Shown here in pieces: positions 24,836-41,353 of a stretch of 41,540 bases of DNA. How positions within the stretch are numbered: the stretch's first letter is position 1; each line of letters begins with the position of its first letter. Made by a program: the position numbers and the translations under genes. The notes below the pieces were generated by a model. It was not told the origin of the DNA, ran no database searches, and saw only the letters and a list, made by a program, of their open reading frames with translations. Origin of the DNA: Nitrospiraceae bacterium (lineage in GTDB: Bacteria > Nitrospirota > Thermodesulfovibrionia > UBA6902); contig CP070632.1 of NCBI GenBank assembly GCA_020356065.1, positions 1,531,159 through 1,572,698 on the forward strand, given 5' to 3'.

Positions 24836-24843
24836 GCAGATAA

Positions 24844-24920
24844 ATTCAAAATTTCAAATTATTACCATATCTTATTTGTCATTATGAATTAATTTGTAAT
24901 TGGGTTTTGACATTTGATAT
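24844..24920. repeat. Possible AT-rich heptad inverted repeat H6 after glmM
   Basis: Left ATTCAAA, ATTTCAA, ATTATTA (24844-24864); right TTTGTAA, TTGGGTT, TTGACAT, TTGATAT (24893-24920). The period and inverted layout agree with H1-H5, but the low sequence complexity makes this copy much less certain. Confidence 0.4.
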
Positions 24921-24968
24921 TAAGTCAAATTTGACTTTTCAAAGGATTCTGAAGTATTTTATATACTT

Positions 24969-25045
<77 letters not shown>

Positions 25046-25054
25046 ATTAAAACT

Positions 25055-25087
25055 AAGGACTTAGGGCTTAGCTCTGAGTCCTTTTTT
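25055..25087 (+). terminator. Rho-independent terminator after tRNA-fMet
   Basis: AAGGACT (25055-25061) pairs with AGTCCTT and runs into T6. It lies 9 bp after the tRNA 3' end. Confidence 0.8.
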
Positions 25088-25302
25088 GCGTTTCGGGGTA
25101 TTTCCCAACGGATTTCTCACTGTACTACACTGAAGCATTCCATTCTGGCAATGGCACTCACGATATTACCATCACTCTAAGGGGGAATGAATCCTTTAAC
25201 ATAAATTATGAATCGGCGAATGGAAACAATATCTTAGGTAATATTTTTCTGAGGGAATTTAAAATCGTAATAAATATTGACAGCTATGCTCAATATATGT
25301 AA
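25078..25302 (+). pseudogene. Possible gene remnant next to tRNA-fMet
   Basis: A reading frame open between a TGA (25075-25077) and a TAA (25300-25302) has no ATG, GTG or TTG start. Its translation has protein-like segments (for example DITITLRGNESFNINYESA) but matches nothing I recognise. Its position at a tRNA 3' end would suit a decayed integrated element. The rest of the gap (25303-25532) is AT-rich, with scattered ATTG/CAATATT words and no gene that I can see. Confidence 0.18.
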
Positions 25303-25532
25303 AATAATAATATTCAAGATTGATAAATTAATTAACAATATATAATCAATATTGTAAAATTATTTCCAAGAATATTAACATGTGGCTAAAATCAGCATCG
25401 CAAGTACTGCATTGATGAGGCATACGTTATTTCATTTCATAAATCAGTTAATTAGTGATATGCAATATTGAGAAACAACAATTCCTTGATTATTAACATA
25501 GTCGTCAGTATGCACAATTAGATATCATTTCC

Positions 25533-26132
25533 ATGAAAGTTCTTATAGCTACAGGCAACAGATTATTATCCACAGGTCTTGAGCGATTGTTGACCAGTCA
25601 TAATGGTACCACACATAAGTTTCACACAACCTATTCATCACAATATGCCTCTCCCGGTACCTGGACTGGCCATGATGTAATTTTGACAGATTACGCATTT
25701 TTAACGAGAATACCAAAGGAGAGTTTTGACAGGAGTAAAATTCTTGTGCTCGATGCCGGATTGGAAAAAGATACGATCGTGACACTTTACCTGACTGAAA
25801 ACATATCCGGTCTCATTCCTGTAGATTCTGATGTTACCATGTTACTGAAGGCCATTAAAGCTGTACAAAAAGGGGAGATATGGATAGACAATCAAACGAT
25901 AAAACATCTGCTTGATAAAAAGATTTCAAGGAAAGCCAGGCAGGTGGCCAAACTGACAGAAAGGGAACACGCAATCATAAAATTAGTAGCTGAGGGGTAT
26001 AGAAATAAGGAGATTGCAGCTTTTTTGTCAATCAGTGAACAAACGGTAAAATCTCACCTGAACCGGATATTCCGGAAATCAGATGTTTCAACCCGCACTG
26101 AATTACTTGCAAAGATTCATGCGCAGGCCTGA
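25533..26132 (+). CDS. LuxR-type regulator with degenerate receiver domain
   Basis: 199 residues. The C-terminus is a clear LuxR/NarL helix-turn-helix (about residues 143-197): LTEREHAIIKLVAEGYRNKEIAAFLSISEQTVKSHLNRIFRKSDV. The N-terminal 120 residues have receiver-like strand order, but the first strand (MKVLIATGN) lacks the acidic pair and only one Asp (ILTDY, about residue 52) could serve as phosphoacceptor. It is therefore probably not controlled by ordinary phosphorylation. It converges on a second protein of the same build (26147-26767), and both lie just upstream of the Tad pilus locus, which they may regulate. Confidence 0.8.
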   Translation: MKVLIATGNRLLSTGLERLLTSHNGTTHKFHTTYSSQYASPGTWTGHDVILTDYAFLTRIPKESFDRSKILVLDAGLEKDTIVTLYLTENISGLIPVDSDVTMLLKAIKAVQKGEIWIDNQTIKHLLDKKISRKARQVAKLTEREHAIIKLVAEGYRNKEIAAFLSISEQTVKSHLNRIFRKSDVSTRTELLAKIHAQA

Positions 26133-26146
26133 TACTCTCCCTGGAG

Positions 26147-26767
26147 TCAATGTATGTGATCATGATCAGACGAATCGAAAACAAAAAACTGCTTTGACAA
26201 AGTGATTAAGTCACATCTGTCTGTGACGTCACTTTTTTTCTGAATATTATTAATCCGAAGTCGTACATTTCTCGTATTTGTCCCGATAGTTCTTGCAATC
26301 ATGTCATTATCCATTCCTGTTCCAATTAACCCGAGAATATCCAGGTCTATCGATTTTAAATTCCACAGCCTGGACAATTCTGACAGTCTGACCAAAAGCT
26401 GCTTCATACATTTTTTGCTTATCCAAAGATTGTCCTTCATAACTGTATTGAAGGATTTTAACAGCATTTCCCTGTCTGAGCTTACATCGAGTATCCCGTG
26501 TATGCGACCTGCTATGAGAGCATAATTAATTGCCTGAACATCACAAACGGTATCCATTAGAAGCACCTTTGATGTGCATTCATTGATATACAGATAGTTC
26601 TCCAGAACATGCATATCAACAATAATAATATCGAAGAACTTATCTTTCAGGGTATCACCGAGATGCGCACTGCTGCAGATACTGACCTTTATATCATTAT
26701 TTCCAGAGAGAATACAGTTGATGCCCAGAGCCATCAACTGATTGCTGAATGACAGGAGAATTCTCAT
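26147..26767 (-). CDS. Divergent LuxR-type regulator with degenerate receiver domain
   Basis: 206 residues, the same architecture as its convergent neighbour. The receiver-like part starts MRILLSFSNQLM without the acidic pair, while IIIVDMHVLENY (about residue 54) supplies a possible Asp. The C-terminal helix-turn-helix is recognisable but altered: LDILGLIGTGMDNDMIARTIGTNTRNVRLRINNIQKKSDV (about residues 142-182), where the usual TVKSHL recognition-helix start is replaced by NVRLRI. It ends in a His/Asp-rich tail (FDSSDHDHIH). The stop codons of the two regulators are 14 bp apart. A TTGACA-type promoter lies directly before the start. Its binding target is likely different from that of its partner. 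Confidence 0.72.
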   Translation of the reverse strand: MRILLSFSNQLMALGINCILSGNNDIKVSICSSAHLGDTLKDKFFDIIIVDMHVLENYLYINECTSKVLLMDTVCDVQAINYALIAGRIHGILDVSSDREMLLKSFNTVMKDNLWISKKCMKQLLVRLSELSRLWNLKSIDLDILGLIGTGMDNDMIARTIGTNTRNVRLRINNIQKKSDVTDRCDLITLSKQFFVFDSSDHDHIH

Positions 26768-26773
26768 AACATA

Positions 26774-26802
26774 ATTTTCTACTAGTAATATGATTCTGTC
26801 AA
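26774..26802 (-). promoter_or_regulatory. Candidate promoter of the minus-strand LuxR-type gene
   Basis: On the minus strand there is a perfect TTGACA (26802-26797), a 17-nt spacer and GAAAAT (26779-26774, 4 of 6). Only six bases separate it from the ATG at 26767, so a leaderless transcript is predicted. Confidence 0.5.
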
Positions 26803-27041
26803 TTCCCCATTAGTTAAGGTTCCACATCAGTTTTAATAATGCCCTCAACTTTAGTATTACATTCATACTATTGGATGACCTCATGAAACTTTAGTTTTAA
26901 CCATATTTAATTTTCAAAGAATGTACTGATTGGTAATATACAAAAGTCCGGTAATTTTTTAGACTTAATGTATCAAATTCCCAATAACAGATTAATAAAA
27001 AAACGACGATTGTTTATAAATGGGCGTTGTCCATATTTCAT
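26803..27041. other. AT-rich intergenic region upstream of the Flp/Tad locus
   Basis: No gene is seen on either strand. A direct repeat AACTTTAGT occurs at 26848 and 26888, 40 bp apart, and could mark regulator sites. The pilin promoter must lie here or just downstream, but no convincing -35/-10 pair was found. Confidence 0.3.
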
Positions 27042-27066
27042 CTTCTAAAGAAGGGAGGAGCTTCTA
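27042..27066 (+). promoter_or_regulatory. flp1 ribosome-binding site with two competing hairpins
   Basis: AGAAG (27049-27053) can pair upstream with CTTCT (27042-27046), leaving GGAGG free, or downstream with CTTCT (27061-27065), placing GGAGGAG in the hairpin loop just before the ATG. The second pairing is also possible before flp2. The stems are only 5 bp, so the effect is uncertain. Confidence 0.3.
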
Positions 27067-27231
27067 ATGTCAAAGATTATTCAGTTCTTAAGAGATGAAG
27101 AGGGGTCGAATGCAGCAGAGTATGCTCTGATCATTGCTCTGGTTGCTACTGTTCTTATTGCAGGAGCCACGTTACTTGGAAATAACATTTCTGCCAGGTT
27201 GACGAACGCAGCGGGCGTCATTGGTCCATAA
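27067..27231 (+). CDS. flp: Flp-type pilin, first copy
   Basis: 54 residues. This is a class III (Flp) prepilin: short charged leader MSKIIQFLRDEEG, cleavage expected after Gly13, then SNAAEY with the conserved Glu-Tyr pair, then the hydrophobic helix ALIIALVATVLIAGATLLG. It is the structural subunit of the Tad pilus and is processed by the prepilin peptidase encoded two genes on. A strong AAGGGAGG ribosome site lies upstream. A near-identical copy follows 249 bp later. Confidence 0.93.
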   Translation: MSKIIQFLRDEEGSNAAEYALIIALVATVLIAGATLLGNNISARLTNAAGVIGP

Positions 27232-27246
27232 GCGAAAACATGGGAT

Positions 27247-27282
27247 GGAACGTCATCTGTTTGAATAAGCGGGTGGCGTTCC
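27247..27282 (+). promoter_or_regulatory. Hairpin after flp1
   Basis: GGAACGTCA pairs with TGGCGTTCC (one G-U) around a loop region containing TTTGAATAAG. There is no T tract. The same hairpin with the same loop follows flp2 (27513-27546). A role in mRNA stability or partial attenuation is inferred. Confidence 0.5.
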
Positions 27283-27315
27283 CAATCTCATTTTGTAAGA
27301 AGGGAGGAACTTCTA

Positions 27316-27495
27316 ATGTCAAAGATTATTCAGTTCTTAAGAGATGAAGAGGGGTCGAATGCAGCAGAGTATGCACTGATCATTGCTCTGGTTGCTACTG
27401 TTCTTGTTGCAGGTGCAACCTTACTGGGAAATAACATTTCTGCCAGGTTGACGAACGCAGCTGGCCTAATTGGTCCAGCAGCAGCCGGTCCATAA
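27316..27495 (+). CDS. flp: Flp-type pilin, second copy
   Basis: 59 residues, nearly identical to the first copy. It has the same leader, Gly13 cleavage site and Glu-Tyr pair. It differs by Ile31 to Val, Val51 to Leu and a five-residue C-terminal extension, AAAGP. The ribosome site and first 19 codons are almost base-identical to copy 1, whereas codons 31-37 differ at several synonymous positions. Either both pilins are assembled together or one is expressed under different conditions; the sequence does not tell. Confidence 0.93.
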   Translation: MSKIIQFLRDEEGSNAAEYALIIALVATVLVAGATLLGNNISARLTNAAGLIGPAAAGP

Positions 27496-27512
27496 ACAAA
27501 AGCTAAGTGAAT

Positions 27513-27546
27513 GAACGTCAACTGTTTGAATAAGCAGTTGGCGTTC
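27513..27546 (+). promoter_or_regulatory. Hairpin after flp2
   Basis: GAACGTCAACTG pairs with CAGTTGGCGTTC (12 bp, one G-U) around the loop TTTGAATAAG. It is the counterpart of the flp1 hairpin, with a longer perfect stem and an identical loop. No T tract follows. It separates the highly expressed pilin genes from the assembly genes. Confidence 0.55.
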
Positions 27547-27614
27547 CCTAAATAATTGATTTGTAAGAATCTTGATTATTAACAAGAGAATTTTTATGGG
27601 ACGTTATAGTGAAC

Positions 27615-28148
27615 ATGTCTGATATACATTTATTATATATATTGATTCCTTTACTGATTACAGCTGTTATATGGGATATACGTAAAGCAAGAATACCAAA
27701 CTGGCTGACGTTTTCTTCAATTATTCTAGCTATCGGTTATTGGACTGCTTCAAACGGGTTAGATGGTCTTCTGTTCAGTGTAGGAGGAGTAACCACGGGG
27801 CTTGCTGCTCTGATTTTTTTCTATGCAATGGGAGGGATGGGAGCCGGCGACGTCAAACTGATGGGAGCTGTAGGAGGACTGCTCGGTCCAAAGTGGGTAT
27901 TTATGGCGTTCATTCTCACCGGACTTGCCGGAGGCCTTTACGCAATAGGACTGCTTGCCGTTAAGGGTAAGCTTCTTGAGACAGCAAAAAGATACTTCAC
28001 AATATGTAAAGCATTCATTGTCACGCGAAAAATAATCTATATTCCTCCGGCAGGTAAAGCCGCTGAGCTCAGACTGCGTTACGGACTGGCTATTGCTATT
28101 GGAACGTGCTGTTCTGTCTTTATGAAGAATTTTAAATATATATTGTAA
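27615..28148 (+). CDS. cpaA: Prepilin peptidase (CpaA/TadV, A24 family)
   Basis: About 177 residues, a multi-pass inner-membrane aspartic protease that cleaves Flp prepilin. The two catalytic Asp are visible: ITAVIWDIRKARIPNWLT (about residues 15-32) and FYAMGGMGAGDVKLMGAVGGLLG, with the GxGD motif (about residues 72-94). There are about five hydrophobic helices. It lacks the N-terminal methylase domain of PilD, as expected for TadV/CpaA. The ATG at 27615 is preferred; a GTG two codons upstream (27609) is possible. Neither has a strong ribosome site. A mini-ORF (MGRYSEHV, from 27596) overlaps the start region. Confidence 0.9.
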   Translation: MSDIHLLYILIPLLITAVIWDIRKARIPNWLTFSSIILAIGYWTASNGLDGLLFSVGGVTTGLAALIFFYAMGGMGAGDVKLMGAVGGLLGPKWVFMAFILTGLAGGLYAIGLLAVKGKLLETAKRYFTICKAFIVTRKIIYIPPAGKAAELRLRYGLAIAIGTCCSVFMKNFKYIL

Positions 28149-28165
28149 TTAACTGGAGGTGCATT

Positions 28166-28987
28166 ATGGAAAAATACAAATCTCTTATACTGTTTGTTGC
28201 AGCAGTGCTGGTAGCCTCATTTACCGCTCTTCTTGCATACAACTGGATGAAGAGCAAGTCATTTACGGAAGAAGGATCTATCAAGACCCAGGAGGTGGCA
28301 GTTTCGACTACGTATCTGCCAATGGGAACAGTAATTAAAAAACAGATGGTCAAGACCATTCCATTCCTTAAGGGAAGTCTTCCCGAAACAGAGGTGTTTA
28401 CAGATGCTTCACTCTTAAACGGAAGGGTGTTGATTTCTCCTGTGAATGCGAATGAACCCATACTCAAATCACGTTTGGCGCCTGACTCCGTATCCGGCGG
28501 CGGTGTGGCCGCAATAGTTGATCCGAATAAAAGGGCCATGGCCGTAAAGATTGATAAGGTAAGCGGTGTATCAGGATTTATTCATCCCGGAAACAGGGTT
28601 GATGTTCTTGTATCATTAAACAAGCTGGATAAAAAAAGAACGCCTGTAACAAAAATTGTCCTTCAGAATATTCTTGTGATCGCCACAGGGACAGAGATTC
28701 AGCAGAAAGACAAGGAGAAAGCGACATCCGTGGAGGTAATTACCCTCGAGCTGACCCCTGACGAATCAGAACGGCTGGCGCTTGCCACATCACAGGGGAA
28801 GATTCAGCTGGCACTGCGCAATTACTCAAATGCCGAGGAAGTTGCGTCAAAAGGGGTCACCATAGACAGACTGCTTTACGGAATGCCCGTGGAAAAAAGC
28901 AGTAAAAGAAAGTATGTAAGAAGAACTCCTAAAGCAACCATAGTACAACTAATAAAGGGAAGTACCGTAAGTGAAATCAAATTTTAA
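28166..28987 (+). CDS. cpaB: Flp pilus assembly protein CpaB/RcpC
   Basis: 273 residues. One N-terminal membrane helix (about residues 6-25, LILFVAAVLVASFTALLAYN) is followed by an SAF domain (about residues 42-105, EVAVSTTYLPMGTVIKKQMVKTI and LINGRVL-like segments) and the RcpC/CpaB core (MAVKIDKVSGVSGFIHPGNRVDVLVSL, VVTLELTPDESERLALATSQGKIQLALRN in pattern). It probably contacts peptidoglycan and the secretin in the periplasm. TGGAGGTG precedes the ATG. It sits 17 bp after the peptidase gene, with the secretin gene next. Confidence 0.92.
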   Translation: MEKYKSLILFVAAVLVASFTALLAYNWMKSKSFTEEGSIKTQEVAVSTTYLPMGTVIKKQMVKTIPFLKGSLPETEVFTDASLLNGRVLISPVNANEPILKSRLAPDSVSGGGVAAIVDPNKRAMAVKIDKVSGVSGFIHPGNRVDVLVSLNKLDKKRTPVTKIVLQNILVIATGTEIQQKDKEKATSVEVITLELTPDESERLALATSQGKIQLALRNYSNAEEVASKGVTIDRLLYGMPVEKSSKRKYVRRTPKATIVQLIKGSTVSEIKF

Positions 28988-29000
28988 AAGGAGACTGCAG

Positions 29001-30542
29001 ATGATGAAAATTGAAAAGACGAGAAACAATTATTACATATCAGGTGTAATTATTGCGGTCTTCATTATATGCATAGTTATTCCCTTCAACACATGGGGAG
29101 ATGATTATGCGCAGGAAGCGCCTTTAACGGTTACGCCGCAAGTGCTCAGCCTTAATGTTGGCAAATCTCTTATTCTTGAAAGTATGGGAAAGGTGAGTCG
29201 TGTTTCAATTGCTGATCCCGAGATCGTTGATGCAATTGTGATAACACCAAACCAGATATATCTGACCGGAAAAGCCGGTGGTTCGACAAATCTCTCTCTG
29301 TGGCAAAAGGATAAACTGCATGCTATCTATAATGTCGACGTGTCGATTGACGTTACATCATTAAAGAAAAAGCTCTATGAGATACTGCCCGAGGAAAATG
29401 ATATTCGTGTTACCGGTAATGGAAGCAGCATCGCCCTTTCAGGCAGGGTCTCATCTGCCTCGGCTCTCTCCCAAGTCCTCGCAATTGCCGATACCTATGC
29501 TCCGAAGGACAAAAATGAAAAAGGCAAAGTCATGAATCTGCTCGAGGTAGGCGGAGTACATCAGGTAATGCTTGAGGTCCGTGTTGCTGAGATAACACGT
29601 GATGTAGGGAAGAGGCTGGGGATTAATTTCAATTCCCTTGGCCCAAGCGGGAGAACGTTTGGAGTGAATAAACTCAACAACCTGTCATCCATGTCTCAAC
29701 TTGCCGGAGTACCGGTAGAAAGAAAGTTTGATCTGTTTCCACCGGGGGGAGAAGTAATTTTGCCGGATAAAGGTTTTCCTGCAGATCCTTTGCAGATTTC
29801 CGGTTTTACTAATTTACTTTTTCGTTTCCTGGGAGGTGACTACTCATGGACCGTGCTGATCGATGCATTAAAGGATGAAGGATTGATAAGCGTGTTGGCG
29901 GAGCCTACCCTTATCGCCTTGAGCGGCCAGTCAGCCAATTTTCTTGCCGGCGGTGAATTTCCGGTGCCTATGCCTCAGGGACTGGGAACAGTTGCCATTA
30001 TGTTCAAGAAATTTGGTGTCGGTCTTACCTTTACTCCAACAGTTCTGAGCAATAACAAAATCAACATGAAGGTTGCACCTGAAGTGTCAGAACTTGATTT
30101 TTCGATTGCAACAGAACAGCAGGGATTCCTTATTCCGGGACTCACCACAAGACAGGCCTCAACAGTCGTTGAGCTGGGGGACGGCCAGAGTTTTGCCATT
30201 GCCGGTCTGCTGCAGGAAAATGTCCGGGAAAATATAACAAAGTTTCCAGTGTTAGGGGACATCCCCGTACTCGGCACGTTGTTCAGAAGCAGCGCATTTC
30301 AGAAAAATGAATCAGAGCTGGTCATCATTGTTACCCCTCATCTGGTAAAGCCGCTTGATATGGCAAAGCAGACATTGCCTACGGATCAGTTTATTGAACC
30401 AAGTGATTATGAGTTCTATATAAAAGGAACGCTGGAGGGAAAAGAGGATAACATAAACACTTCATCAAGTCATGCATCTCAGGTAGTCCACAATGAAAAG
30501 GGAGGCCTTGAGGGAGATTTCGGTCATATCATTCCTGAATAG
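29001..30542 (+). CDS. cpaC: Flp pilus outer-membrane secretin CpaC/RcpA
   Basis: 513 residues from the ATG at 29001, chosen because AAAAGGAG lies just upstream; an in-frame ATG at 28971 inside cpaB has no such site. A signal peptide (about residues 12-31) is followed by the pilus-type N-domain with LTVTPQVLSLNVGKSLILE and VVDAIVITPNQIYLTGKAGG-like strands, then a BON-like segment and the secretin core (about residues 180-450). The hallmark C-terminal stretch FPVLGDIPVLGTLFRSSAF plus ELVIIVTPHLVKPL is present. It forms the multimeric pore for the pilus. Confidence 0.94.
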   Translation: MMKIEKTRNNYYISGVIIAVFIICIVIPFNTWGDDYAQEAPLTVTPQVLSLNVGKSLILESMGKVSRVSIADPEIVDAIVITPNQIYLTGKAGGSTNLSLWQKDKLHAIYNVDVSIDVTSLKKKLYEILPEENDIRVTGNGSSIALSGRVSSASALSQVLAIADTYAPKDKNEKGKVMNLLEVGGVHQVMLEVRVAEITRDVGKRLGINFNSLGPSGRTFGVNKLNNLSSMSQLAGVPVERKFDLFPPGGEVILPDKGFPADPLQISGFTNLLFRFLGGDYSWTVLIDALKDEGLISVLAEPTLIALSGQSANFLAGGEFPVPMPQGLGTVAIMFKKFGVGLTFTPTVLSNNKINMKVAPEVSELDFSIATEQQGFLIPGLTTRQASTVVELGDGQSFAIAGLLQENVRENITKFPVLGDIPVLGTLFRSSAFQKNESELVIIVTPHLVKPLDMAKQTLPTDQFIEPSDYEFYIKGTLEGKEDNINTSSSHASQVVHNEKGGLEGDFGHIIPE

Positions 30543-30553
30543 AGGAGGAAAAA

Positions 30554-30946
30554 ATGTTTAAAACATGCTTAATCATAGCTGGTTGTCTATGTACTATTTT
30601 GATTGCAGTTCAGGCTCATTCTGATAATGCTGAACAGAGTGAGCAGATAAGTGTAGCAGGTGTTTCAGATGAGGAACGTACAGAACCAGGCACTATTCAG
30701 TTAGGACCGGATTCTGAACATGCTGCAAGCAGTAACATGAGCAGACTGGAGCTTGACTACGGCACGTCATATCGGCTAGCTGTGTATGGCCAGATACTGA
30801 ATCCTGATGCAGAGAAAAATACAGAGCCGGTCACCGGACTTGATGGGCAGGCTGCAGAAGTAATTATTGACAAGTACAGAAAGAGTTTTGAAAAACCAAA
30901 AAAAGATCCGGTTTACATTTTAAATGTTGGATCGAGCAGAAAATGA
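30554..30946 (+). CDS. Small exported protein of the Tad locus, unknown
   Basis: 130 residues. The signal peptide (about residues 1-21, CLIIAGCLCTILIAVQAHS) may instead be a lipoprotein signal at one of its Cys residues. The mature part is acidic and probably disordered, with a short conserved-looking patch MSRLELDYGTSYRLAVYGQILNPDA (about residues 60-84). Position between the secretin and TadE suggests a pilotin or CpaD-like role, but no CpaD signature is seen. The RIQL-like NPDA... region resembles patches in small Tad-locus proteins only loosely. A strong AGGAGG site precedes the ATG and the stop overlaps tadE by 4 bp. Confidence 0.72.
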   Translation: MFKTCLIIAGCLCTILIAVQAHSDNAEQSEQISVAGVSDEERTEPGTIQLGPDSEHAASSNMSRLELDYGTSYRLAVYGQILNPDAEKNTEPVTGLDGQAAEVIIDKYRKSFEKPKKDPVYILNVGSSRK

Positions 30947-31380
30947 TCAGGAAGATGATAAACGTCCATAAAGAACAACAGGGCGCAGTAGCGGTCGAGT
31001 TTGCCCTGCTGCTGCCGATTCTTGCTGTACTGCTCTTTGGGGCGGTTGAATTTGGAGCCATACTATACGACAAGGCCGTGGTTACAAACGCAAGCAGGGA
31101 GGGGGCACGATTCGGGGCTGTATACAGGGAGCCCGGGGAAGAGATAACATGCGGTGATATAAATACTGTTGTCCAGAATTACACGACAGGCCATTTGATA
31201 ACCTTTGGTGGAGGCGGTCCTGCCGACCCAACCTATCCGTTAGGCTGTGATCCGGGATCTGGAAACGAGCTTACGGTACGGGTCTCTTATGATTATGATT
31301 ATCTGGTTCTCCCGAATCTGGTTACCAGCCTCATTGGCCCTATAACCCTTGTGGGTGAGACCACAATGATAAAAGAGTAG
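30943..31380 (+). CDS. tadE: TadE-like pseudopilin
   Basis: 145 residues. The N-terminus is GAVAVEFALLLPILAVLLFGAVEFGAILYDKAVVTNASREGAR (about residues 10-52): TadE signature with a Gly before AVAVEF, suitable for prepilin-peptidase cleavage, a hydrophobic helix and the NASREGAR motif. The remaining part is a small beta-rich domain with two Cys. TadE pseudopilins support Flp assembly. It starts in an ATGA overlap with the preceding gene. Confidence 0.9.
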   Translation: MIRKMINVHKEQQGAVAVEFALLLPILAVLLFGAVEFGAILYDKAVVTNASREGARFGAVYREPGEEITCGDINTVVQNYTTGHLITFGGGGPADPTYPLGCDPGSGNELTVRVSYDYDYLVLPNLVTSLIGPITLVGETTMIKE

Positions 31381-31406
31381 AGCAACAAATCAGGAAGAAG
31401 AGCTAT

Positions 31407-32603
31407 ATGAAGTACAATAACGACTGGAAACAGGGAAGTACAAAGAAATTACAGGATACGCACGGGGCAACGGCTGTTATCGTTGCAATATCAATGGTCG
31501 TTCTAATTGGAGCTGTTGCTCTGGCTGTTGACATCGCTCACCTGGCTGTTGTACGGGGTGAACTGCAGAATGCCGCTGATGCAGGCGCACTTGAGGGAGC
31601 CCGTGTCCTGTATAACTACGATGGAAGCGGAACGGAAAGTGTAAATACAGGAGCCAACCTTGCTGCCCAGCAGGCGGCCCTTAAAAATGACAGTGACAAT
31701 GAGGCTGTTGAAGTCGACCTGGGTTCAGATGTCCAGCGAGGGCACTGGGATACAGCGTCTCACAATTTTACCCCAAGCAGCAGCATGGACACAAGCGTTA
31801 TAAACGCGGTCAGGGTAACCACCCACAGAAGTGCTTCCCAATCCATCTTTGCCCAGATCTTTGGTATTCAGAGTTTTGCTGGTTCTGCTACGGCTGTTGC
31901 CTACAGGGGATATGCCGGCAACAGCGTTGACTTTGATGAACCTCTGGCAATATGCAGGGACATGATCGAAGACACAAATGGCGAATACCAGTGTACAACG
32001 GGTTTGATGGTCCCATCGCCTGTGGAGACTGCAAGGTGGACGAATTTCTCCGAGGACTGTGAATTAAATGCGAGTCAGAGTAATGTAACTCCCATTATCT
32101 GTACTGACACTGACCCTGTTGATCTGTCTGCTATTTCGACAATAAACGGTGAGGTGCAGCCGACCATGAATGCAATGAAACAGTGCTGGGAAAATGCAAC
32201 AAACAGAACGCAGTTCTGGAGTTTGACGCTGCCTGTAGTTGAATGTATAGAGCCTGTGGTGTGCAGTCAGATTGTGGGTGCTGTCAGCGTTAACGTTGTA
32301 TGGGTTACGGAGAACGGAAATGACCCTCAATATAACGAAATTCCCCAGCAGATGGAGGACTGGTCAAGTGTAGTGGATTGTTCAGCTTTTAATCTGTCTG
32401 AAGCAACCGGGAGAGAACAATGCTGGAATGATTTTACAAATCACTTTCATCTGTCTTTTTATGATGCAAACGGAGTATTGCAGCCAGCTCCTTACCAGCA
32501 AAATACTCTCTATTTCCTGCCGTCTTGTGAATTTACGGGTGAAGGAGGTCCGGGTGGACTTGATTTCAATGTGCATGCCAAATATCCAAAGCTGGTTCAA
32601 TAA
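31407..32603 (+). CDS. tadG: TadG-like protein with a Cys-rich C-terminal region
   Basis: 398 residues. The N-terminus is GATAVIVAISMVVLIGAVALAVDIAHLAVVRGELQNAADAGALEGARVL (about residues 20-68): Tad_N/TadG signature with a membrane helix and the conserved NAADAGALEGA. The periplasmic part lacks the von Willebrand A domain found in long TadG proteins. Instead it has about ten Cys spread from CRDMIED (about residue 180) to the terminal FLPSCEF, suggesting several disulfide bonds. It follows tadE by 26 bp. It may be the tip or an outer component, but the C-terminal region is not recognised. Confidence 0.82.
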   Translation: MKYNNDWKQGSTKKLQDTHGATAVIVAISMVVLIGAVALAVDIAHLAVVRGELQNAADAGALEGARVLYNYDGSGTESVNTGANLAAQQAALKNDSDNEAVEVDLGSDVQRGHWDTASHNFTPSSSMDTSVINAVRVTTHRSASQSIFAQIFGIQSFAGSATAVAYRGYAGNSVDFDEPLAICRDMIEDTNGEYQCTTGLMVPSPVETARWTNFSEDCELNASQSNVTPIICTDTDPVDLSAISTINGEVQPTMNAMKQCWENATNRTQFWSLTLPVVECIEPVVCSQIVGAVSVNVVWVTENGNDPQYNEIPQQMEDWSSVVDCSAFNLSEATGREQCWNDFTNHFHLSFYDANGVLQPAPYQQNTLYFLPSCEFTGEGGPGGLDFNVHAKYPKLVQ

Positions 32604-32612
32604 AGGAGTCCT

Positions 32613-33797
32613 ATGCAAAGTAATAGTGTATCTGTTGGATTAGAGATTAAAAACGAACAAGTAAAAAGTGAACTGATAGAGATCATATCTTCCATTGCGG
32701 GTTTCCGCGTTATGAAATTTCTCGATCAGGAGGATTGCGACATTATTGTTCTGGAGATCGGTGACGATCCGGAAAAAGAATTTCAATGTATTCACTCACT
32801 GCACGATGCAGATGCGAATAAGGGCGTTTTTCTTACGTCGTCGCGTACCGAACCGGAGATTCTGCTCCGTGCATTAAGGGCCGGAGCAAAAGAGTTTTTT
32901 ACACAGCCTTTGAAAAGAGAAGAGATAATCAATGCTTTTGGAAAATTCAGGGAAAAAAAGGTGTATGCCCCTTCAAATGGCAATGGAAAGAAAAAAGGAA
33001 AAATCATTAATGTTCTGGGAAGTAAAGGCGGTATAGGTACGACAACAATTTCTGTGAACCTTGCTCTCAGTCTTCTTGCATCGCCAAATGATAATCAGAC
33101 ATCTGTAGCTATCATGGACCTGAATCTTCTCTTTGGAGAAGTACCGATCTTTCTTGGCCTGAAGCCTGTCTTCAGCTGGGGAGAGATCGTGCAAAATATT
33201 TCCCGTCTGGACTCCACGTATTTAAAGAGCGTTATGGCAAAGCATGATTCAGGGATGCACATCCTTCCTTCTCCTTCACAGTTTGATGGTATCACTGTAG
33301 CGAATTCAGAAATAATAGGTAAAATCCTGCAATTAATGCTGAAAGAATATGACTACATAGTGATCGACAGTGGTCAGTCATTGGATGACATGTCCCTGAA
33401 AGTTCTTGAACTGTCCGATACAGTATTAATTAACTCCATATTGAGTCTTCCCTGTCTTATCAACTGCAAGCGCCTCCTGGAATCATTCTGGAGAATGGGA
33501 TATCCGCGTAATGAACATATCAAGATTATTATCAATCGATATCATAAGAATTCTGACATATCACTGAAGGATGCTGAAAAGGGGATACAGAGAAATATCT
33601 TCTGGACAATTCCAAACGAATACCAGTTGACAATGTCTGCTATCAATCAGGGCAAACCCCTCACCGCTATGTCAAACAAATCTGATATCACCAGAAAAAT
33701 AAGGAACCTGGCAGCCGCATGTTTAAAGGATATGAATACGATAAAAAACGAAACTTACCATGTCCCGGAACCGAATCTGTCCGGAATAAGATCTTAG
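32613..33797 (+). CDS. cpaE: CpaE/TadZ-type ParA/MinD-like ATPase
   Basis: 394 residues. An N-terminal receiver-like domain (about residues 1-115; GVFLTSSRTEPEILLRALRAGAKEFFTQPL) is joined to a MinD/ParA ATPase. The deviant Walker A motif is SKGGIGTTT (about residues 137-145), followed by AIMDLNLLFGEVPIFLGL and the Walker B-like YDYIVIDSGQSLDDMSL. TadZ/CpaE proteins position the pilus machine at the pole. AAAGGAG precedes the ATG. The receiver part lacks a clear phosphoacceptor, as is usual for this family. Confidence 0.92.
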   Translation: MQSNSVSVGLEIKNEQVKSELIEIISSIAGFRVMKFLDQEDCDIIVLEIGDDPEKEFQCIHSLHDADANKGVFLTSSRTEPEILLRALRAGAKEFFTQPLKREEIINAFGKFREKKVYAPSNGNGKKKGKIINVLGSKGGIGTTTISVNLALSLLASPNDNQTSVAIMDLNLLFGEVPIFLGLKPVFSWGEIVQNISRLDSTYLKSVMAKHDSGMHILPSPSQFDGITVANSEIIGKILQLMLKEYDYIVIDSGQSLDDMSLKVLELSDTVLINSILSLPCLINCKRLLESFWRMGYPRNEHIKIIINRYHKNSDISLKDAEKGIQRNIFWTIPNEYQLTMSAINQGKPLTAMSNKSDITRKIRNLAAACLKDMNTIKNETYHVPEPNLSGIRS

Positions 33798-33835
33798 CGT
33801 CTGTGAGAATAACATACCACAAGGAGATTTAACGT

Positions 33836-35218
33836 ATGTCAGAAAATAATATTGTGAATAAATTATTTAGTGGGAAAAAAGATCAGGGAGTTTTGGACAG
33901 AATTCCTGAAGAACATCAAATGGTATTTACCCCTACAAATGAATACTACGAATTGAAAACACGTATACATGACAAGATGCTCGATCTCATGGATCTGACC
34001 CTTATTGATTCTCTAGACCAGCATATCCTCAGGAGAGAAATCGGGAAACTGATTGAGAAGATATTATATGAAGAAAGCAGCAGCGTTCCACTAAATCTGG
34101 CTGAGCGGGAACAGTTGACCAGAGAAATTCAGGACGAAGTCCTGGGACTGGGGCCATTGGAGCCTCTTTTACAGGATCCGGTTATCTCAGATATCCTCGT
34201 TAACACATATAAACAGATATACGTGGAAAAACACGGAAAGCTTGAAAGCACAAATGTACGATTTAAGGATGATAATCATTTGATGAGAATAATTGACAAA
34301 ATTGTATCTGCTGTCGGCAGAAGGATAGACGAATCCTCCCCCATGGTTGATGCAAGGCTTGCCGATGGCTCACGAGTTAATGCAATCATTCCTCCGCTGG
34401 CTATTGACGGCCCCATGCTTTCTATCAGGCGGTTTGCCGTGGACCCCTTGGAGCTGGATGATCTTTTAGCCCTGAATACCCTGACCCCCCCTGTAGGGGA
34501 ACTCCTGAAAGGAATAGTCAAAGCAAGGCTGAATGTCCTGATAGCCGGCGGAACAGGTTCTGGTAAAACAACACTGCTGAATGTTCTGTCACGCTTTATA
34601 CCGGCAAATGAAAGAATTATTACCATAGAAGATTCTGCTGAACTGCAATTAAAACAGGATCATGTTGCAAGAATGGAAACAAGGCCTGCGAATATTGAAG
34701 AGAAGGGTGAGATTACACAGCGCGATCTGGTCCGGAACAGTCTCAGAATGCGTCCTGACCGTATTATTGTCGGAGAGGTACGAGGAGTTGAGGTGGTAGA
34801 CATGCTCCAGGCCATGAACACCGGCCATGACGGGTCTCTCACTACCATTCATGCGAATTCACCGCGCGATGCCTTATTACGACTTGAAACACTGGTTGCA
34901 ATATCCGGACTTCAGATACCTACTGAGGCCATACGTCGTTATGTCAGTTCTGCTCTTGATGTCATTATTCATCTTGATCGACTCGTCGATGGAAGAAGAA
35001 AAATAACAAGTTTTCAGGAATTGACAGGCATGGAAGGAAATGTCATCACTCTGCAGGAGATAGTCAGATTTGAACAGAAGGGAATAGACGAGAGCGGTTT
35101 TGTGAAAGGACATTTCAGGGCATCCGGAATACGGCCACGATTTATTGAACGGTTTAAAGTGCTGGGTATTCCTGTCCCTTATGATATGTTTGAACCCGGA
35201 CGAATTTTGGAAGTGTAA
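33836..35218 (+). CDS. cpaF: Pilus assembly/retraction ATPase CpaF/TadA
   Basis: 460 residues, the usual length. It is a type II/IV secretion ATPase that drives pilus extension from the cytosol. The N-terminal domain includes [27 protein letters not shown] (about residues 97-123). Walker A is GGTGSGKTT (about residues 238-246). The Asp box is [10 protein letters not shown]. Walker B is [40 protein letters not shown] (about residues 303-342) with His-box residues. AAGGAG lies upstream of the ATG. All catalytic motifs are intact. Confidence 0.97.
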
Positions 35219-35239
35219 CTTCTGATTACAGGAGGCAGT

Positions 35240-36208
35240 ATGATAACAGTTTTTATCGGCATAGGAATTTTTATCACTATCGTTTTATTGATTCAGGCAG
35301 TCTATATTACGGTCAGCGCATACTCGGTTTCAGAGAGCAGAACTATAAAGAAAAGGTTGAGATCACTCTCAGCAGGCGGCGCTGTTCATGAAGAGATCGA
35401 TATTTTAAAAAATCGACTCTTAAGTGAAGTGCCGTGGCTGAACAGTCTTCTTTTGCGTTATACGAGATCCCATCATCTGGACAGATTGCTGGAACAGGCA
35501 AATTCAAACATGTCCCTCGGATTTTTCTTTCTCCTTACCGCATTTTTTGTTGTGTCAGGATTTGTTGCAGGATATATCCTGAGAATGAATCCGTATATGA
35601 TGATTATTATTGCTCCTCTTCTAGGCATGATCCCGTACTTGTACCTTTCTTCCAGAAGAGCCAGCAGGTTAAAGGCTTTTCAGGAGCAGTTACCTGACGC
35701 TCTTGATCTTATGGCACGTGCCCTCAGGGCCGGACATGCCTTTACCGGTGGGCTGAATATGGTTGCTGAAGAATTTGCGGATCCGATAGGACCTGAATTT
35801 GCAAAGACAATTGATGAAATAAATTTCGGAATCGGAGTGAATGAAGCCATGATAAACCTTGCGAGGCGTATCGATATCCCTGACCTTCAGTTCTTCACGC
35901 TGGCGGTAATCATACAAAGGGAGACCGGAGGAAACCTTGCGGAGATCTTTGAAAAAATTGCATATATAATACGGGAACGTTTCAAGCTTTTTGGAAAAGT
36001 ACGCGCATTGTCTGCAGAAGGAAAGTATTCGGCTATCATTCTTTTTGTCCTTCCTATTGTCATGGCAGTATACATTTCCATAGTGAATCCTTCATATATG
36101 TCTTTGTTATACACGGATCCCATGGGATTTAAAATGGTGTGTATGGCCATTGGCCTGATGATTACAGGGGCCTTCGTCATGAGAAGGATGATAAATATAA
36201 AAGTATAG
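35240..36208 (+). CDS. tadB: Flp pilus inner-membrane platform protein TadB
   Basis: 322 residues. An N-terminal helix (about residues 2-25), a paired helix region (about residues 90-135, FFFLLTAFFVVSGFVAGYIL and MIIIAPLLGMIPYLYL), the T2SSF domain (about residues 155-285, QLPDALDLMARALRAGHAFTGGLNMVAEEFADPIGPEFAKTIDEINFG) and two C-terminal helices. The T2SSF domain contacts the CpaF ATPase. AGGAGG precedes the ATG; tadC follows after 13 bp. Confidence 0.93.
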   Translation: MITVFIGIGIFITIVLLIQAVYITVSAYSVSESRTIKKRLRSLSAGGAVHEEIDILKNRLLSEVPWLNSLLLRYTRSHHLDRLLEQANSNMSLGFFFLLTAFFVVSGFVAGYILRMNPYMMIIIAPLLGMIPYLYLSSRRASRLKAFQEQLPDALDLMARALRAGHAFTGGLNMVAEEFADPIGPEFAKTIDEINFGIGVNEAMINLARRIDIPDLQFFTLAVIIQRETGGNLAEIFEKIAYIIRERFKLFGKVRALSAEGKYSAIILFVLPIVMAVYISIVNPSYMSLLYTDPMGFKMVCMAIGLMITGAFVMRRMINIKV

Positions 36209-36221
36209 GGAAGAGGGATAT

Positions 36222-37163
36222 ATGATGAGAGATGAAGTTGTAATTTCAATAATGGTGTTTGTCGGATCAATTCTTTTTTTGATGGGATTTATATCGATTT
36301 ATTTTATGCAGGAAAGAAAAAAGAAAATTATTGATCAGATAAAAAGTGAGGGTGAGAATCTAATTCTCAGGAAGAAAACTGATTATGGTAAAGATGTCCA
36401 GAGCACGTTAGGTAAGATCATAAGCTCAATAGGTAACACGTTTAAGCCCAAAACAGAACAGAATAATTCAGCAATTCGCAGGAACTTATTACAGGCAGGA
36501 TACCGTAAACATAACGCTCCAGCGATCTTTATGGGATATAAGATCTTCTTTGCAATTTGCCTTCCTGTATTATTCTCGGTCTGGAAATTATTATTAATTA
36601 CGGTGTTTTCACCTGCCTTTTTTATGGGTCTCTCCATTATGCTGGCTTTGACGGGGTTTTATTTGCCTAACCTTTGGGTAAAGATGAAGAAAGCCTGGAG
36701 GAAAGACAAAATTATAGAAGGGTTTCCGGATGCCCTTGACCTGATGGTTATCTGTGTTGAGGCAGGGATGGGGATGGATGCTGTGATTTCACGTGTCGGA
36801 GAGGAAATGAAATTGAGAAACAAAGTAGTGAGCGAGGAGTTCCGGCTTTTAAGTCTGGAACTCAGAGCCGGCAAACCCCGCCGGGAGGCCCTGAAGAATC
36901 TTGGGATGAGGACAGGGATTGATGATGTAGCCAGTCTGATGACGCTGTTGATCCAGACAGATAAATTCGGGACCAGCGTGGCCCAGGCCCTCAGGGTGCA
37001 TTCTGATTCAATGAGAACCAAACGACAGCAGAGAGCAGAAGAGATAGCTGCCAAATTGCCGGTGAAGCTGGTTTTTCCATTGATTCTTTTTATGTTACCC
37101 GCACTTTTAGTGACAATAGTCGGTCCTGCAGTAATTAAGATGATCAGGGTATTAAAGTTTTAG
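36222..37163 (+). CDS. tadC: Flp pilus inner-membrane platform protein TadC
   Basis: 313 residues, a paralogue of TadB. N-terminal helix (about residues 5-27), middle helices (about residues 105-148), T2SSF domain (about residues 165-280: GFPDALDLMVICVEAGMGMDAVISRVGEEM, ELRAGKPRREALKNLGMRTGIDDVASLMTLLIQTDKFGTSVAQAL) and a final helix (LPVKLVFPLILFMLPALLVTIVGPA). It pairs with TadB to form the platform. It is closely spaced to tadB, with AGAGGG before the ATG. Confidence 0.93.
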   Translation: MMRDEVVISIMVFVGSILFLMGFISIYFMQERKKKIIDQIKSEGENLILRKKTDYGKDVQSTLGKIISSIGNTFKPKTEQNNSAIRRNLLQAGYRKHNAPAIFMGYKIFFAICLPVLFSVWKLLLITVFSPAFFMGLSIMLALTGFYLPNLWVKMKKAWRKDKIIEGFPDALDLMVICVEAGMGMDAVISRVGEEMKLRNKVVSEEFRLLSLELRAGKPRREALKNLGMRTGIDDVASLMTLLIQTDKFGTSVAQALRVHSDSMRTKRQQRAEEIAAKLPVKLVFPLILFMLPALLVTIVGPAVIKMIRVLKF

Positions 37164-40987: not shown

Positions 40988-41353
40988 ATGGATAAGAGAG
41001 TTTTTAATAGACTGAACGTGGATATTAAGATATCGTTTAATCTCTGGAATCCACTTGTCTGGAAAAAGGAATATAATGGAGTTATCAAAAATATCTCGGA
41101 AAACGGCCTTTTTATAAGCACGGTAACTCCGAGTTTCCCAGACGAAGCCCTGCTCGAAATATATCTCCGTGCTGATAATGAAATAATATTTATCCCTGCC
41201 AAAGAAAATAAAATAATCTGGAGGACATCGGTATCCGGTAATGTATGCGGCAGTATAGGGGTGGTGTTGTTACATCCGCCAAAAGTCTATTATAAATTTG
41301 TACGGCATCTCAAGGGTATTGATACATTATCGGACACAATCACGCCGGGATAA
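40988..41353 (+). CDS. PilZ-domain protein (predicted c-di-GMP receptor)
   Basis: 121 residues, a single PilZ domain. The N-terminal RxxxR c-di-GMP motif is visible (KRVFNRLNVDI, Arg4 and Arg8), followed by the second motif (D/N)xSxxG as KNISENGLFI (about residues 34-43). The rest is a six-stranded beta barrel with a terminal helix (YYKFVRHLKGI). Both ligand motifs are intact, so binding of cyclic di-GMP is expected. It lies 128 bp after the last Tad gene on the same strand and may link pilus function to c-di-GMP, though it could be separately transcribed. Confidence 0.85.
   Translation: MDKRVFNRLNVDIKISFNLWNPLVWKKEYNGVIKNISENGLFISTVTPSFPDEALLEIYLRADNEIIFIPAKENKIIWRTSVSGNVCGSIGVVLLHPPKVYYKFVRHLKGIDTLSDTITPG

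Follow-up and report, generated by a model that had tools for sequence, protein, structure and literature searches.

We found that two LuxR-type regulator genes, luxA and luxB, converge just upstream of a Tad locus, and that this convergent pair recurs in two further genomes, represented by the loci L057 and L058, a recurrence that is more than chance. We consider it reasonably probable that LuxA is a non-phosphorylated regulator of the CsgD/VpsT kind that would act on flp and on luxB through an operator placed between them, with LuxB as its diverged partner. In the mechanism that we propose from sequence comparison, LuxA, probably as a dimer, would bind the near-palindromic operator TNAAACT-TT-AGTTTNA repeated between luxB and flp, and this binding would set the Tad pilin operon and luxB jointly, presumably by activation rather than repression and in response to a putative input signal. 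LuxB would be a duplicate that kept the receiver-like half while its DNA-reading helix diverged, and it would most likely tune LuxA, either as a heterodimer partner or as an antagonist made under the same operator; alternatively, it may read a different site.

The locus would be a case of CsgD/VpsT-like matrix regulation, a known type, here on a Tad locus. The two facing regulators probably act as a switch for sticky surface fibres, which we propose because some relatives lie beside curli-amyloid genes and the same DNA word stands beside family members in both settings. Both an operator and its binder can be predicted at this locus, which also supplies a natural partner whose DNA-reading helix is altered; binding, antagonism and the input signal are thus directly testable. 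In the literature that we covered, which is partial, we found no LuxR regulator of a Nitrospirota Tad locus, no pseudo-receiver regulators of Tad pili in Nitrospirota and no match to the word AACTTTAGTTTTA.

The window is the whole stretch of 41,540 nucleotides that was analysed, and the features discussed below lie in it as follows.

25533..26132, + strand: LuxA, 199 aa; pseudo-receiver and LuxR/NarL helix-turn-helix, recognition helix SEQTVKSH
26133..26146: gap of 14 bp between the convergent stop codons
26147..26767, - strand: LuxB, 206 aa; pseudo-receiver and diverged helix-turn-helix NTRNVRLR; fast-evolving paralogue of LuxA
26768..27066: divergent promoter region of 299 bp between luxB and flp, common to both
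26844..26859: predicted operator box 1, CTCAACT-TT-AGTATTA, 7-2-7 layout
26884..26899: predicted operator box 2, TGAAACT-TT-AGTTTTA, 40 bp from box 1
27020..27034, + strand: small hairpin in the flp leader, ATGGGC-GTT-GTCCAT
27067..27231, + strand: flp pilin 1, Pfam Flp_Fap
27316..27495, + strand: flp pilin 2, near-duplicate of the first, Pfam Flp_Fap
27609..37163, + strand: Tad genes, the presumed regulated target

Gene content and conservation of the pair beside Tad genes

Both regulator genes are intact ORFs. The first-pass annotation had described two proteins of the same build and about 200 residues, facing each other with 14 bp between their stop codons, and this description holds, the ORFs of 199 and 206 aa both matching the GerE/LuxR Pfam family, LuxA at 57.1 bits and LuxB at 23.7 bits, barely above the cutoff of 23.5. 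The two are paralogues with 27% identity across 192 columns. Structure prediction of the two N-domains, which had also been proposed there, gave confident AlphaFold2 models with a receiver-like N-domain in both proteins and a helical DNA-binding domain; mean pLDDT is 92.8 for LuxB and 90.0 for LuxA, in which residues 131-137 fall below 50. Full-length Foldseek matches of the models include LiaR, VraR, RcsB and VpsT.

The Tad genes comprise those for prepilin peptidase, CpaB/RcpC, secretin, TadE, a Tad/TadG-like protein, a CpaE-like protein and CpaF, together with two T2SSF genes (TadB, TadC) and a 130-aa ORF without a Pfam match. The two flp genes (27067-27231 and 27316-27495) are near-identical and the stretches upstream of them are alike too, which amounts to a tandem duplication. 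Upstream of LuxA are a tRNA-Met and a phosphoglucomutase/glmM-like gene; the tRNA-Met (24969-25045) stands between the glmM-like gene and LuxA and is followed by a terminator-like hairpin at 25055-25083. An Rfam scan of 24836-27700 returned tRNA only.

Convergent LuxA and LuxB genes lie just upstream of flp-tadV-cpaB in the window, in L057 and in L058, so that the pair stands beside Tad in all three genomes found with a LuxB orthologue, and these genomes come from two orders. In L057 and L058 the pair is followed by flp, a prepilin peptidase gene and cpaB, and the luxB-flp divergent region spans 203 and 456 bp, respectively. The LuxA orthologues at these two loci are 54-55% identical and the LuxB orthologues 40-42%. 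By position, beside flp/tad in three genomes, the pair is a candidate for Tad-locus regulation, and the earlier proposal that the two are local regulators of the pilin promoter gains from this synteny (3/3) and from the recurrence of the flp-luxB word beside other family members.

The pair is rare in the genomes sampled, in three samples that overlap and of which the phylum sample was drawn from a larger group. LuxB matches with E<1e-100 occur in 2 of 395 phylum genomes, namely the window's own and G314, the genome of L058. A LuxB orthologue is present in 2 of 176 genomes in the order of G314 (G314 itself and G451, which has the sequence of L057), and among 47 genomes of the window's own order the best LuxB match outside its own genome reaches only 3.1e-13. 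The plasmid collection gave one distant LuxB match only. TadB is present in 49 of the 395 phylum genomes and the pair in just two of these 49, hence most Tad loci of the phylum do without it.

The 20-kb stretches around the Tad genes of G015 (same genus) and G042 (same family) hold no LuxA or LuxB match. In a tree that leaves out L057 and L058, whose contigs end before tadB, and in which the tadB of G314 comes from another contig than its pair, the window's TadB clusters with the G314 protein (99/94) and separately from those of the pairless G015 and G042; it is thus nearer to the TadB of a pair-bearing genome of another order than to its counterparts from pairless members of the same genus and family. 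Because of this grouping and of the missing pair near Tad in G015 and G042, the pair and the Tad locus seem to have been inherited together, by transfer or by loss elsewhere. A genomic island at the tRNA was also considered, with tRNA-Met here, tRNA-Leu upstream of LuxA in L058 and none in L057, and was rejected as unproven, a search of the window and of the 19 kb that follow it having shown no exact repeat of the tRNA gene of at least 14 bases.

Conservation of the pair away from Tad loci had been named in the first-pass annotation as a point that would speak against its role there. The orthologous pair was found at Tad only, whereas the wider LuxA family lies mostly elsewhere, partly by curli or PilZ genes; the LuxA family is not Tad-specific, though the window's branch is.

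A regulator of this general class is known at flp/tad genes from Pseudomonas aeruginosa, where PprB is a NarL/LuxR-type regulator of these genes, according to the accessible text of PMC3510237. The window pair resembles PprB by position. Unlike the window pair, with its degenerate receivers and two paralogues, PprB is the response regulator of a classical PprA/PprB pair; no kinase was found among the flanking genes scanned with Pfam.

A recurrent word as predicted operator, and its likely binder

The luxB-flp region contains AACTTTAGTATTA and AACTTTAGTTTTA, 40 bp apart. The distances between the boxes and the start codon of flp are about 175 and 215 bp, and no flp promoter was recognised there. 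Their 7-2-7 layout is that of NarL-type sites. The pattern AACTWTAGTWTTA matches exactly at three places in the 3.17-Mb genome, and the 299-bp luxB-flp region accounts for two of these, a rarity that is partly circular there, the pattern having come from the window's own region. Similarly, each of the three pair-bearing genomes holds a single TCAACTTTRGTWY, invariably between luxB and flp, against four occurrences of the reversed pattern across all three, and since TCAACTTTRGTWY was fitted to the luxB-flp sites the information added is the absence of other sites. For an 11-mer common to L057 and L058, the expectation in the corresponding region of the window was 0.0004-0.0007 occurrences and one was seen, a figure weakened by the choice of word.

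The recurrence beside other family members was measured with the word AACTWTAGTTTTA, which was defined at the window's flp promoter before other loci were tested. With at most one mismatch it lies within 600 bp of 18 of 42 other family members (no site at the remaining 24), against a mean of 0.53 and a maximum of 5 for 300 permuted words; this test followed an earlier sight of matches in some loci, the word being left unchanged and the 600-bp flank chosen then. When sites are counted once, 15 of 38 loci together carry 21 that differ from the word at one position or none, six of them exact, compared with 0.62 on average and never more than 3 in 200 dinucleotide shuffles, and distal sequence holds no exact and four one-mismatch matches in 254 kb.

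In the phylum sample, exact matches to the stricter word AAACTTTAGTTTWA number 21 and come from 18 of 395 genomes. The word is present in 7 of the 24 genomes that bear family members and in 11 of the 371 that do not (p = 2.5e-5). Within the class the counts are 7 of 23 against 8 of 144 (p = 0.001; 0.004 excluding the window's own genome), whereas the reversed word, commoner overall (51 against 18 of the 395 genomes), is not tied to the family (5 of 23 against 26 of 144, p = 0.43). Five of the 21 matches fall at the window or less than 1 kb from a family gene (G000, G024, G136, G280 and G357), and the pair-bearing G314 has no match to AAACTTTAGTTTWA.

The operator words are short and AT-rich. 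At one mismatch the first word is not over-represented in the window's genome (15 against 71 for its reversal), and when two or three mismatches are allowed the counts over each whole source stay close to chance for the window (4, mean 3.2) and L058 (5, mean 2.7), L057 alone lying above chance (7 against a mean of 2.0). A strand- and position-free test on the three intergenic regions was borderline, its best 14-mer being reached by 3 of 60 shuffles and its best 20-mer, in which the window row is not the operator, by 1 of 60. In 6 of 7 genomes the loose 7-2-7 pattern was less frequent than its reversed control, and a loose palindrome with two mismatches was discarded as too common for use.

The third exact match of AACTWTAGTWTTA in the window's genome (L160:3015-3027; C1:1466014) lies about 375 bp ahead of a gene for a sigma-54 activator and, with its flanks, shares 19 of 20 bases with box 2 and its flanks. 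A regulon running through this activator, 92 kb away, was considered and set aside, there being no clear orthologue for a conservation test: its best matches in six other genomes reach 38-46% identity, and each of these genomes has at least a dozen matches. Elsewhere, at L134:2146-3574, an exact operator word lies upstream of a small gene and a gene fusing PilZ and sigma-54 activator domains.

Which of the two proteins would bind the boxes was judged from the family. We collected 48 non-redundant members, in whose tree the LuxA orthologues form one clade and the LuxB orthologues another, each at 100/100, with poorly supported deeper branching; the stem of LuxB measures 2.03 changes per column and that of LuxA 0.9. 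LuxA has the recognition helix SEQTVKSHLNRIFRK, and the LuxB counterpart reads NTRNVRLRINNIQKK. The helix SEQTVK[SA]H is near-invariant across the family, unlike in ten receiver proteins used as a yardstick, and it is lost in all three LuxB proteins, in agreement with the earlier observation of one normal and one altered helix (NVRLRI for TVKSHL). LuxA carries the family helix and the Trp that follows the receiver, with the word lying beyond luxB before flp; LuxB retains the Trp and not the helix. Since LuxA keeps the family helix, and since LuxA and LuxB are the sole family matches in their own genome at E<=1e-12, we infer that LuxA is the likeliest binder of the boxes.

It is also conceivable that the pair regulates Tad with LuxB binding the boxes and LuxA acting elsewhere or upstream. 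The gene luxB adjoins flp and diverges from it in 3/3 genomes, which is a usual spot for a local regulator, and the LuxB helix remains basic. However, the word recurs beside members with LuxA's helix, at loci where no LuxB orthologue was found, and the helix varies among the three LuxB orthologues, yet the boxes persist; we therefore regard binding by LuxB as unlikely. With LuxA as the predicted binder, LuxB, which is intact in three genomes with a changed helix, most likely modulates LuxA.

Signal input, 3′ ends and phosphorylation

VpsT of Vibrio cholerae (3KLN/3KLO), a matrix regulator, likewise joins a pseudo-receiver to a LuxR domain, and for each of the two proteins it gives the best match by sequence in the PDB (E 3.6e-15 for LuxA, 3.8e-5 for LuxB), although by fold alone it is outranked by LiaR, VraR and spr1814. 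Unlike VpsT, the window pair adjoins a Tad locus and has a diverged second paralogue. The Trp after the receiver is invariant in all 29 family members aligned and corresponds to a residue that we take to be W131 of VpsT. The VpsT-type c-di-GMP motif is W[F/L/M][T/S]R; VpsT itself has W-L-T-R, whereas LuxA has W-I-D-N and LuxB W-I-S-K. Arg134 of VpsT is needed for c-di-GMP binding, as stated in the accessible part of PMC3359988. Its equivalent is Asn in all three LuxA proteins and K, K and R in the three LuxB proteins, in which the Thr position is variable. Thus, even though VpsT is the nearest structure by sequence, the motif Trp is invariant and PilZ genes often adjoin the relatives, we consider it decidedly unlikely that the pair are direct c-di-GMP receptors acting as VpsT does.

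The first-pass annotation had further suggested that the tail-to-tail placement gives mutual antisense control, a suggestion that found no support. The stop codons are separated by 14 bp in the window, 18 bp in L057 and 34 bp in L058, and the sole + strand terminator-like site near the end of luxA sits within luxB (26210-26227), so that the luxA transcript could read into luxB. However, the gap length is not conserved, the 3′ regions fold in an ordinary manner (z 0.20, 0.12 and 1.72 in the three genomes), close gene convergence is common in bacteria, and the layout follows also from luxB being divergent from flp. That overlapping 3′ transcript ends repress each other, and that this is the point of the arrangement, is accordingly very improbable.

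Conserved RNA structure between the stop codons or in the flp leader was also considered and dropped, the folds being ordinary. In the flp leader, the small hairpin at 27020-27034, about 30 nt upstream of the flp start, has counterparts at a like place in L057 (ATGGGTTTTACCCAT) and L058 (GGGTTTTACCC), in which one pair is changed on both sides (C-G to U-A); the fold z-scores are not significant. The same hairpin was scored as terminator-like in the terminator listing.

Receiver degeneracy was read from an alignment of ten receivers of related genomes with the 48 family members. At the acidic-pair positions LuxA has T-G and LuxB F-S, which bears out the earlier statement that neither receiver has the pair, the Thr/Ser position is Asp in both proteins, and the Lys is lost in both. 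The beta-3 Asp at the phosphosite position is kept in both, a point absent from the first-pass annotation. Across the family the Asp-Asp pair is found in 0 of 48 members (one row is gapped there, a late start having been chosen, and one retains the second Asp), the phosphosite Asp in 45, the Thr/Ser in 8 (Asp or Gly in 33) and the Lys in 4, and the LuxB of L057 has Asn at the phosphosite. Of the residues that mark a phosphorylatable response regulator, the phosphosite Asp alone remains in the window pair, and phosphorylation of the pair is unlikely.

It is barely credible that both are ordinary two-component regulators phosphorylated at the beta-3 Asp by a kinase encoded elsewhere: this Asp is widely kept and, 7-10 kb past the end of the window, the ORF list shows a kinase-like gene next to an ordinary response regulator, but the acidic pair, the Lys and the Thr/Ser are mostly gone, the phosphosite itself is Asn in the LuxB of L057, and the nearby kinase-like gene has its own regulator. 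This regulator, at L201:7169-9705 in the window's own genome, is of the ordinary LuxR type and has the Asp-Asp pair; the kinase-like gene comes after it.

Our preferred reading of LuxA as a non-phosphorylated regulator places it among the pseudo-receivers, which have the receiver fold without the phosphotransfer residues and have been reviewed with VpsT, CsgD and FleQ among them (PMC12632262). In the text of that review available to us, the terms 'Tad' and 'pilus' were not found, and how pseudo-receiver regulators are switched is given as an open question.

Relatives beside curli genes

CsgD, the enterobacterial curli regulator, has the same architecture as the window proteins, and some LuxA relatives lie by csgEFG and curlin genes. 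With the CsgD model PRK10100, LuxA scores 66.4 and LuxB 27.8 bits, far under the equivalog cutoff of 250, and for LuxA the MadR model scores higher (73.8 bits, cutoff 300). In further contrast to CsgD, the window's branch is linked to Tad, and the relatives often have PilZ genes between or beside them. CsgD homologues outside the gammaproteobacteria are reported from few taxa, and the terms Nitrospira and Thermodesulfovibrio are absent from the main text of that paper as far as it was accessible (PMC3521004).

In G010, a genome of the same order as the window's, the genes run LuxR, PilZ, LuxR, CsgE, CsgF, CsgG and curlin genes. L060 carries LuxR, CsgF, CsgG and curlin (tblastn), and curlin-repeat genes adjoin the family members at L145, L150 and L153 (Pfam run for L145 and L150). 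Linkage to csg genes was found at L053, L060, L145, L150 and L153 and not at the window, which is linked to Tad. Of these five loci, L060 is the only one with the word immediately ahead of csg genes; it lies before the second LuxR in L053, before its LuxR in L150 and inside a curlin gene in L145, and was not found in L153. Elsewhere, it often lies just after one LuxR gene, before PilZ or the next gene.

Curli and Tad pili, which are unrelated surface fibres, are thereby linked by one regulator family and one DNA word. As a tentative and rather doubtful extension, the family and its operator word may form a matrix switch independent of the fibre, placed on curli in some Nitrospirota and on Tad elsewhere, in which a duplicate without the family helix, made from the same divergent promoter, would be a protein antagonist giving feedback or a pulse without phosphorylation.

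PilZ genes lie beside or between family members at many loci, and the Desulfuromonadales relatives L072 and L078 are near apparent polysaccharide genes (Pfam run for L078 only). At L053:8653-15054, a LuxR-PilZ-LuxR-CsgE-CsgF-CsgG-curlin cassette in the same order has operator words between PilZ and the second LuxR. In the window, a PilZ-like gene lies at the far end of the Tad locus (40988-41353; 21.3 bits, just under the cutoff of 22.5), and PilZ genes accompany LuxA relatives as well.
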